Positions 45,364-60,119 of a stretch of 64,000 bases of DNA are shown here, in pieces (position 1 is the first letter of the stretch; the number at the start of each line of letters is the position of its first letter). The stretch comes from Alphaproteobacteria bacterium (GTDB lineage: Bacteria; Pseudomonadota; Alphaproteobacteria; RF32; CAG-239): positions 62,001-126,000 of the forward strand of contig JAFTWG010000015.1 in NCBI GenBank assembly GCA_017465405.1. Direction: 5' to 3'. A program made the position numbers and the translations under genes. Under the pieces are notes generated by a model that was given only the letters and a program-made list of their open reading frames with translations, was not told where the DNA came from and searched no databases.

Positions 45364-46602
45364 TCATTCATTTCTTTTGAAAAGCAAATATTTTTCAATA
45401 ACCTTATCGGCAAACAAACGACTAACTGACGGCAAACGATTAAGCTTTATGTTTATCGGCTCATTTTCTCCGGAAAAATCATCTAAATCAATAGCATAAT
45501 CACCATTTAACAAACTATTTGCCAAGCGATAACAGTCAGGACGAGTTTGAGTATTTATTTTTACATAACGACAAATTGCGGTTGGAACGCCGGAAGATGC
45601 AGTTTCACAAGCTGCAAAAGAATCAAAAGTGTGTATTGCTATTGTGTTCGGCAACCCTAAAATTCCCGGATATATGTTATTACATTTTTTGGCTTGTATC
45701 ATAAATTCTTTTTCAAAATTACCGGAATATATTCGCCATTTATCCGGTTGTCTTTCCTCGTCATTTTCGGCAATTTTTTTAGAATTATAGAAATCTATTT
45801 CACCATTTTCGACACATTTTTTATATAAAAAATCGGTAACATCGTTTGGAGTTCTGGGGCCGTTAACAATTATCACATTGTAGTTTTTATTTTTGATTTC
45901 AAGTGCCTTATTCCATATTTTTTGAGCAACATCAATATCAAAAACTATATCGTCACCTAATGCTCGTCCGCCCAGACAAAAAACCGCGTTAGGTTTGTTA
46001 TTTTTATATTTTTCCGCTATCTTTTGCAAACGTTTTTGACCATATTTTTGACGAATAAAAGTTTTGGTTAGGTTATGAACGATACCTAATGAAAAAAAGA
46101 CTTTATCCGTTAACTCCGGAAGTTCTTTAATTTGTTTAAATTCTTGCGTTGATAATTGATGTTCGGGCAAATTTATCAAATCGGCGACCTCATAATTGCC
46201 ATATTTGGCGGTCATAATAACCGTCATTATATTACCCCATTTTTTTTGCTTATAATAATTTTTGACAGCTAAACACTCGGCTTCGGCATTATAAACAGCC
46301 TGTTCTTTTTCTCCTTGTGTCAGCGCCGTAACAAAAAGCCGGGGTTTAATAAGGCGATTTTGAAAATAGTTATCAAAACAGATAAACATATCTTTTTCAA
46401 AATCGGAAAACGAAGCATAATCAGAACAACGTAATGAATTGCCGGTTACATTTTGCATAAAAAGCTCCATATTGGTAACAAACTTGGCATTTTTACTGTT
46501 TCGACTGCAACGAGCAAGCCAAGTCACCAAACCTTTAATTTGATTTTGTTCTCCCATATTGGGAGTAAACGGAGCAAAAACCGTAACTATATTTTTGAAC
46601 AT
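45364..46602 (-). CDS. ELM1-like (mitochondrial-fission ELM1/DUF1022) nucleoside-diphosphate-sugar-type protein
   Basis: 412 residues. 'AVFCLGGRALGDDIVFD' opens the second half. 'VIIVNGPRTPNDV' corresponds to the family's T/N-S-R-R-T-P segment, and 'IHTFDSFAACETASSGVPTAI' to the 'TADS.SM.SEA.ATGKPV' segment. The two-Rossmann-domain layout is like GT-B glycosyltransferases. Bacterial members are common in Alphaproteobacteria, and some lie near LPS genes. Their reaction is not established. GAGG precedes ATG 46602. No clear partner genes lie adjacent. Confidence 0.7.
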   Translation of the reverse strand: MFKNIVTVFAPFTPNMGEQNQIKGLVTWLARCSRNSKNAKFVTNMELFMQNVTGNSLRCSDYASFSDFEKDMFICFDNYFQNRLIKPRLFVTALTQGEKEQAVYNAEAECLAVKNYYKQKKWGNIMTVIMTAKYGNYEVADLINLPEHQLSTQEFKQIKELPELTDKVFFSLGIVHNLTKTFIRQKYGQKRLQKIAEKYKNNKPNAVFCLGGRALGDDIVFDIDVAQKIWNKALEIKNKNYNVIIVNGPRTPNDVTDFLYKKCVENGEIDFYNSKKIAENDEERQPDKWRIYSGNFEKEFMIQAKKCNNIYPGILGLPNTIAIHTFDSFAACETASSGVPTAICRYVKINTQTRPDCYRLANSLLNGDYAIDLDDFSGENEPINIKLNRLPSVSRLFADKVIEKYLLFKRNE

Positions 46603-46667: not shown

Positions 46668-47243
46668 TTACTTAAAACTTAGATAAACATACAATCCCGA
46701 GCCATCATATTGTTCTAAACAACCAGCTGTAGCTTTAGTTACAGAAACAGGTAGCTCGTTTGCTAAAAATATTGTATCTCCTATTCCTCATATAACGACA
46801 CTTGACAATACAGAATTTGCATCTCCAAAATCAACACTTGCTAATGCAACACAAGCATTTACAGGTAAATCATGAAAAACTATAGAAAAGTGTGCTCTAT
46901 GAATACCATCAGAAGAAGAATAATCATCAATAGCAACTTCTCCATTTAACGCATGATAAATTTCCGTAGCTACTGTTGAAGATTTACCATTTAGCATTTC
47001 TGTTGGTATTGCCCCAGATTGTATTGCAACAACATTATTTAAGCCTTCATAATTTGGCTGACCTGAATATAAGGTCCTAACATTAGTAATTATCATCACC
47101 AATTGATCGAGCAATTTGCCGATTTTAAACTTTTCCATAGCTTTTGAATATCCGGCGATACCTCCTACCAACAAAACACCTATAATCGCCAATACACCTA
47201 ACATTTCCACCATGGAACGCCCCATTTGATTGTTTTTATTCAT
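46668..47243 (-). pseudogene. Type IV pilin-like gene interrupted by an in-frame TGA (or recoded)
   Basis: The N-terminus 'MNKNNQMGRSMVEMLGVLAI' is a class III prepilin leader: cleavage after Gly8, Glu at +5, then a hydrophobic helix. The frame reaches TGA at 46788-46790 (151 aa). Reading on in the same frame gives 39 more sense codons ('GIGDTIFLANELP ... TAGCLEQYDGSGLYVYLSFK') before TAA at 46668. The extension supplies the second C-terminal Cys and the terminal aromatic strand that the related proteins at 50292 and 59682 have, so the ancestral gene very probably ended at 46668. UGA is used as a normal stop elsewhere (for example pheS), so a nonsense mutation is the simplest reading. UGA readthrough remains possible. 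The SD is AAGAGAAA. Confidence 0.7.
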
Positions 47244-47272
47244 AATTTTTCTCTTTTTTGTTTGCTCTAATT

Positions 47273-47356
47273 AAACGTACCTTTAATTGGAACGTAAAAT
47301 TTCTTCTGTAAGCCTTGGTTTTGGGTCTTGATTTTTGCTCAAAAAAAGGTACGTTT
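47273..47356. repeat. 12-bp perfect inverted repeat flanking about 60 bases
   Basis: AAACGTACCTTT (47273-47284) and AAAGGTACGTTT (47345-47356) lie upstream of the broken pilin gene. The right arm is followed by T's, so a long terminator-like or regulatory hairpin is possible. Confidence 0.6.
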
Positions 47357-47493
47357 TTTATTATTACAATTTATTGTTTTTACATGATAAAATTTAATAT
47401 TTTTCAGACAAACTCACTTAATATCCCCATTTTTTTGCAATTTTCTATGAAAAACATCTATCATTATCCGTGCGAATGAATATCCCCTTTCTC

Positions 47494-50291: not shown

Positions 50292-50840
50292 TTATTGAAA
50301 TCTCCATGTAATTTCATTATTGAGTTCATCATGACATAAAGTTTCTGCCTGTACTACCGATAAAGGCATTATATAGGTAGCATTTCTCCATTTAGCAGGA
50401 ACGCCGTTAACTTTCATAAAAATTAAATTTGAATATTGGTCATGAGCCCAATTTTGAATAGCCAACTCAACGCAAGGTTGTTTGGGAAGTTTGGTAAACC
50501 TTATTTGATAGGCTCTACCACTCAAAACGGCATTAACTTGAACAAGTCCGTTAAATTTATGACGAACACCACCTCCTGACCCAACACTAATATCTCCGGG
50601 AAGCAAATTTTCCTCTATTAACAATCCCATATTTAGTTTTTCATAGCTTTCAGCTGCGGCAAAACGGACATTAATTGATTTTTGTAATTCTGCAACTTGT
50701 GAGGTCAGACGACTGATTTTATACCGATCAAGCATACTGCTAACAACTTTTACAATACCGATGGAGACAGCGGTAATAACTGCGATAAACATTATACTTT
50801 CAAGAAGTGTATAACCTTTTTGATTTTGGGTTCTTTTCAT
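50292..50840 (-). CDS. Type IV pilin-like (pseudopilin) protein
   Basis: 182 residues. The leader 'MKRTQNQKGYTLLESIMFIA' has prepilin cleavage after Gly9 (G/YTLLE, Glu +5) and a hydrophobic helix. The C-terminal half is beta-rich with 'YQIRFTKLPKQPCVELA' and ends 'LCHDELNNEITWRFQ'. A strand-LPxxxC-strand, then a second Cys about eight residues from a final aromatic strand, is shared with 46668 and partly 59682. It likely belongs to a type II secretion or type IV pilus system whose core genes are not in this window. ATG 50840 is preceded by GGAGG. Confidence 0.85.
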   Translation of the reverse strand: MKRTQNQKGYTLLESIMFIAVITAVSIGIVKVVSSMLDRYKISRLTSQVAELQKSINVRFAAAESYEKLNMGLLIEENLLPGDISVGSGGGVRHKFNGLVQVNAVLSGRAYQIRFTKLPKQPCVELAIQNWAHDQYSNLIFMKVNGVPAKWRNATYIMPLSVVQAETLCHDELNNEITWRFQ

Positions 50841-50920
50841 CACAACCTCCAAATAAATTTCTTTACTTTTATCAAGTATAGCTTAAATTATATTAAAAAG
50901 GAATAAAGAAAGGATTAAAA

Positions 50921-59681: not shown

Positions 59682-60119
59682 CTAAAAATATAATTTTACG
59701 GAATTATTTGAATTTTGACAATCTTGACCATCGTTTATTTCAATGCGTTTTGCTCCCCACGGATTGCCTTTAATTAGAAAGCAAGAACCGGTATCAATAT
59801 TTTGTATATCTATATAAAATTCTGCAGTGGAAACCGGAACTACATTCCAGTTAACTCCGTGTAATCCGTTAAAGGACAATAACGAAACATCAATATCAAG
59901 ATAATTTTGCATAAATTTGCTTTGAATTTCAGTAACCAGAAATCCGATATCTTGTTGTAATTGCATGCGTCCGAGAGCACTATTCATCGTTCCTACACTT
60001 TTATAGGCGTTAGCATCAAGAGTTGCCCCAACACCTAAAACTCCCATCATTTCATTCATTTGTGCTTGTGCAGGATTAATTGAAAGCAAAACAGCCAGAC
60101 AATACAAATATTTTTTCAT
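59682..60119 (-). CDS. Secreted protein with pilin-like C-terminal pattern
   Basis: 145 residues. A Sec signal peptide 'MKKYLYCLAVLLSINPAQA' replaces the prepilin leader. A helical segment (about 40-75, 'GRMQLQQDIGFLVTEIQSKF') is followed by a beta-rich part with 'FYIDIQNIDTGSCFLIKG' and a C-terminal 'DCQNSNNSVKLYF'. The first Cys after a strand and the second Cys close to a terminal aromatic strand match the pilin-like proteins at 46668 and 50292. So it may be a soluble pilin-domain partner. Strong AAGGAGG. The function is unknown. Confidence 0.75.
   Translation of the reverse strand: MKKYLYCLAVLLSINPAQAQMNEMMGVLGVGATLDANAYKSVGTMNSALGRMQLQQDIGFLVTEIQSKFMQNYLDIDVSLLSFNGLHGVNWNVVPVSTAEFYIDIQNIDTGSCFLIKGNPWGAKRIEINDGQDCQNSNNSVKLYF

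Follow-up and report, generated by a model that had tools for sequence, protein, structure and literature searches.

The question raised by this locus is why the coding frame of a pilin-like gene is interrupted by a TGA 39 codons before it would naturally end. The gene lies in a window of 64,000 nucleotides (G000:C26:62001-126000), which is the whole stretch of DNA analysed here and belongs to a genome of 1.64 Mb in 33 contigs. The coordinates of the original prediction, with a TGA at 46788-46790 and the same frame open on to the TAA at 46668, are exact. From the ATG at 47243 to the TAA at 46668-46670, the frame comprises 192 codons, both stops counted. The features concerned are as follows:

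46788..47243, minus strand: truncated type IVb pilin ORF of 151 aa, from the ATG at 47243 to the TGA at 46788-46790, with Pfam matches to Bundlin and PilS
46668..46787, minus strand: in-frame pilin remainder of 39 codons, ending at the TAA 46668-46670 and carrying the second conserved Cys, recognized by homology to full-length C-termini
50292..50852, minus strand: second, divergent pilin-like ORF of 186 aa, for comparison only (PilS 32.9 bits, Bundlin 30.5 bits)

The TGA stop codon by itself is ordinary. The explanation that we favour, with a probability of about 0.68, is that the gene encodes an accessory paralogue of the type IVb pilins, interrupted by a nonsense codon (or a base error), and stands behind an Mpi-type invertible promoter predicted to be OFF. 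The pilin would probably be subject to phase variation, its present allele being defective.

Several features relate the product to the type IVb pilins (Bundlin/BfpA, PilS, and TcpA). The ORF passes the Pfam gathering scores for both Bundlin (62.2 bits, cut-off 22.3) and PilS (39.4 bits, cut-off 22); the N_methyl model scores 15.7, below its cut-off of 21.2. The translation contains a GRSMVE prepilin motif, with cleavage at G|RSMVEMLGVLAIIGVLLVGG, followed by a hydrophobic N-terminal helix. An AlphaFold model of the intact relative with the nearest architecture, G003:C66 (mean pLDDT 75.7), has the TcpA and TCP pili of V. cholerae as its nearest solved folds. As in type IVb pilins, two C-terminal cysteines are present in the intact relatives, both being invariant in 8 of 8 aligned sequences; unlike these, the window copy is cut off before the second one, which lies beyond the TGA. 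On the G003 model, the missing part corresponds to a strand (140-144), a helix (152-162) with Cys159, and a further strand (167-173). The truncated product, deprived of its last strand-helix-strand and of its second disulfide cysteine, is most likely non-functional.

The extension had been described as pilin-like, and this is borne out: it aligns with about 30 family members and holds the conserved LPVS...A...C block together with the second Cys, and hence is not a chance open frame. Two other proteins of the window had been cited as related. The one at 50292 does belong to the pilins, as a divergent member of the PilS/Bundlin type that has a C-terminal Cys, whereas the one at 59682-60119 (minus strand) has an ordinary signal peptide and not a single Pfam match, so that its identity as a pilin is not established. 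Downstream of the pilin, the gene at 45364-46602 (minus strand) reaches 32.9 bits against the Mito_fiss_Elm1 family, for which the cut-off is 27.

The homologue search covered 39 relatives and 13 genomes of the genus; a contig scan returned a single homologue, 63% identical. Many homologues remain open past the TGA position, with frames of about 177-230 aa. The comparison of sister-genome homologues that had been proposed as a check was made, and all have sense codons at the TGA position. No homologue examined, whether in the 39 relatives, the 13 genus genomes, or the alignment of about 30 members, ends there. This argues against the view that the 151-aa protein works as a short pilin and that the TGA is its natural end. 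Such a protein would retain the prepilin motif and the hydrophobic N-terminus, but it would have lost the second invariant Cys and the terminal strand, and we regard this view as very improbable.

UGA is a normal stop elsewhere in the window, as had been stated: among the 39 ORFs with a length of 200 aa or more, 26 end with TAA, 9 with TAG, and 4 with TGA. The prfB gene of the genome, encoding RF2, retains the frameshift site (AGGAGG...CTTTGA) that serves this factor as its UGA sensor. No tRNA-Sec exceeded the family cut-off in the genome, the weak best matches being ordinary tRNAs. On these grounds, selenocysteine insertion and UGA recoding were rejected. The companion proposal, namely that UGA is suppressed to give a long and a short pilin, could draw on an extension that is conserved and still open, but it is not supported: besides RF2 with its autoregulation site and the lack of a tRNA-Sec over the cut-off, the stop is conserved in no homologue, and the short form would be without one invariant cysteine. 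Programmed UGA suppression at the pilin is hence unlikely, and it is the least probable of the readings weighed here. Because the homologues run past this position, UGA is a normal stop, and no tRNA-Sec passes the cut-off, the most fitting interpretation of the TGA is that of a nonsense allele or a base error.

The suggestion of a recent nonsense mutation has gained ground, since the relatives are sense-coded at the position, the frame beyond is clean, and UGA is a genuine stop. Part of this evidence would also suit an intact pilin, with the TGA arising from a wrong base or a faulty assembly of this metagenome-derived genome: a single codon is affected, and there is no other lesion. We consider such an error unlikely, although it is the strongest of the competing accounts. 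It has no positive evidence in its favour, and in-frame stops are also found in other pilin paralogues, namely a TAG in G017:C19 and a TGA at the prepilin site in G012:C16. The latter (G012:C16:1500-6500, around position 1919) replaces the residue before the mature N-terminus. The loss of individual paralogues is therefore ordinary in this pilin family. In G017, type IVb-like pilins are unusually expanded, with 54 pilin matches scattered over the contigs.

Phase variation had also been invoked for the stop codon. No repeat tract suited to slippage is apparent by eye near the TGA, and slippage-type phase variation at the stop was rejected for this reason. Phase variation is nevertheless probably relevant, not through the stop codon but through the Mpi-type element of the leader. 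Between the pilin and its intact G003 relative, the 5' leader is about 84% conserved over 136 bp, and the two loci otherwise have no common neighbours. DNA similarity revealed that this leader is a dispersed inverted-repeat element, of which there are six strong copies in G000 and three in G003, with more in G004, G010, and G011. No known Rfam leader matched the pilin leader above its gathering score. A search with an IUPAC pattern across the genus found nothing; a sequence model did find copies, with matches at E<=0.01 in 35 of 152 genomes of the family and in 12 of 16 genera, including strong sets in three genera, although many of the weaker single matches may be due to chance. At the pilin, the element is composed as follows:

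47272..47357, minus strand: whole invertible-promoter-like element (pilin leader), matched by model R1 at 81.4 bits
47274..47283, plus strand: gene-proximal inverted-repeat half, AACGTACCTT, with core GTAC at 47277-47280, pairing with the distal half
47346..47355, minus strand: distal inverted-repeat half, AACGTACCTT, with core GTAC at 47349-47352; such a pair occurs in 0 of 300 Markov sequences generated from the dinucleotide composition of the window
47328..47333, plus strand: predicted -35 hexamer TTGATT of the switch promoter, which points away from the pilin; the TTG is so placed in 42 of 43 copies
47350..47355, plus strand: predicted -10 (TACGTT) of the switch promoter by consensus match, overlapping the distal repeat

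Every copy of the element has two GTAC-centred sites that are inverted with respect to each other. In two g6 copies, the centre is changed to GTCC at one end and, in step with it, to GGAC at the opposite one. Measured from core start to core start, the g1 and g6 genomes show a distance of 72-74 bp and g5 one of 83-84 bp, corresponding to 7 or 8 helical turns. At one end, 42 of the 43 copies have a TTG exactly 17 bp from a TACnnT, reading outward (a consensus match only); the -35-like hexamer is TTGACA, TTGATT, TTGACT, or TTGCAT, and two GTCC-type copies have GACnnT in place of TACnnT. At the opposite end, a TTG is found at the equivalent place in just one copy of 43. The segment therefore has one predicted promoter, the direction of which is set by its orientation. 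The pilin copy may be impaired, because its core-to-core distance (72 bp) and its promoter spacer (16 bp) are both one base short.

Since its switch promoter points away from the gene in the assembly, the pilin is predicted to be OFF. The same state is predicted for the copies at C3:2254, C19:2397, and C26:207596, and the ON state for those at C27:45178 and C3:39376, as well as for a degenerate copy at C7:2421. In G064, the promoter is directed away from the adjacent gene in nearly all copies (15 of 15 by one count), as in many copies elsewhere. A weak promoter-like match upstream of the pilin (47411-47384, minus strand) could read through into the gene, such matches occurring at chance frequency.

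Comparison of the copies points to inversion. In two of the six strong G000 copies, the inner segment is flipped and both outer flanks are conserved. Between C3:2254 and C3:39376, the outer flanks are 97% and 97% identical, and the identity of the inner 41 bp rises from 0.49 as is to 0.78 when flipped; between C27:45178 and C19:2397, the flanks are 93% and 100% identical, with inner values of 0.34 and 0.85, respectively. At least two inversions therefore took place between those ends, the copies compared being paralogues at separate loci and not two states of one locus. The inner segment bears a resemblance to hix/gix sites; this identity was dropped, since the likeness is not kept in other lineages.

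A candidate for the acting enzyme is encoded on the same contig as the pilin, about 88 kb apart. This 199-aa serine recombinase (G000:C26:197419) matches the NCBIfam model NF009949, 'master DNA invertase Mpi family', with 285 bits (cut-off 272), and two paralogues fall just below that cut-off (257.7 and 266.8). Mpi is the noted example in which one master recombinase serves numerous sites far from each other, in at least 13 regions (PMC5903667), and the layout here is of the same kind. Its repeat in B. fragilis is ARACGTTCGTN, and a related switch in B. intestinalis has GTTCGTTTAA repeats around elements of 183-186 bp (PMC8375218). The element repeats AAACGTACCT and GTACGTTTAA are close to both, and the pilin repeat AACGTACCTT agrees with ARACGTTCGT (PMC8375218) at 8 of 10 positions. 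As in the B. fragilis Mpi regulon, there is one serine invertase family, together with scattered promoters (predicted ones here) upstream of surface genes and a similar repeat core. By contrast, the hosts are alphaproteobacterial, the promoter is of a sigma-70-like TTGACA/TACnnT type, the targets are a pilin, autotransporters, and Cys-rich secreted proteins, and the cores are 73-84 bp apart, unlike the 183-186 bp elements of B. intestinalis (PMC8375218).

The fimS switch of E. coli type 1 fimbriae, served by FimB/FimE, is similar in that an invertible promoter (a predicted one here) drives the gene of a fibre subunit, but its element measures 314 bp and is served by a tyrosine recombinase (PMC9993118). 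Enzymes of that class fit less well here, because G005, with five copies of the element, has only XerC/XerD-type enzymes. The genome does encode a FimB-like tyrosine recombinase of 194 aa (G000:C1:130948), with close relatives only in G011 and G002 and a degenerate copy in G010. It was rejected as the invertase, since it does not track the element and is absent from G005.

Inverted repeats of this kind can also flip by template switching. Instead of an invertible promoter, the leader element could be a pair of looped operators or an RNA leader, and its flips could reflect rare hairpin-mediated inversions in the course of evolution; the fact that they are seen only between paralogous copies is in keeping with this. 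An RNA leader would, however, need neither the 7- or 8-turn phase nor a -35/-10 pair at one end, and the repeats match the Mpi recombination repeat in a genome that encodes an Mpi-family invertase. We hold this account to be improbable, slightly more so than a base error at the TGA.

Returning to the invertible promoter, its operation can be pictured as follows. Two GTAC-centred inverted repeats, 72 bp apart at the pilin and 73 or 83-84 bp apart elsewhere, flank a segment whose single predicted promoter, of sigma-70-like type, reads outward at one end, and a serine invertase of the Mpi family would presumably flip this segment, turning the downstream surface gene ON or OFF. With the promoter directed away from the gene, selection would have little hold on the pilin coding sequence, and a nonsense allele could persist with little counter-selection for as long as the gene is OFF. 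Relaxed selection on an OFF pilin would fit the presence of one nonsense codon and no further damage to the frame. From sequence, then, we infer reversible inversion at the pilin, its transcriptional control, the acting recombinase, and relaxed selection.

At the scale of the lineage, we lean, with somewhat less assurance than for the pilin itself, towards a broader proposal: these small-genome Alphaproteobacteria would use Mpi-type global promoter inversion, with a very short switch whose crossover cores stand 73 or 84 bp apart and always keep helical phase, so as to phase-vary a whole set of surface proteins comprising pilins, autotransporters, and Cys-rich proteins, and inactive alleles like that of the pilin would accumulate while OFF. 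If true, global surface phase variation of the Mpi type, for which Bacteroides is the best-known case, would be extended to Alphaproteobacteria; a genome-wide survey reported no inversion signature in its four Alphaproteobacteria samples (PMC5903667). The orientation of the switch would then predict expression, which is a concrete and testable rule, and the constant spacing of 7 or 8 turns would offer a natural test of how serine invertase sites pair on very short DNA.

Most strong copies stand directly upstream of genes for secreted or surface proteins. These include the pilin and long autotransporter-like proteins in both G000 and G003, and Cys-rich secreted proteins in G004, G005, G010, G011, and G064. 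Copies ahead of autotransporters and Cys-rich secreted proteins are thereby spread over several genera. Five long autotransporter-like paralogues of G000 (MKYKAFPLLLATTF..., on C3, C27, C19, and C26) each have a switch, and several of them reach contig ends, as expected for repeats. In G064, at least 15 copies with 83-84 bp spacing precede a family of Cys-rich secreted proteins. Finally, in G017:C7 and G040:C28, two divergent glycosyltransferase-like genes are separated by switch-like elements that have GTCC/GGAC cores, an arrangement that looks as if a single promoter were toggled between the two.
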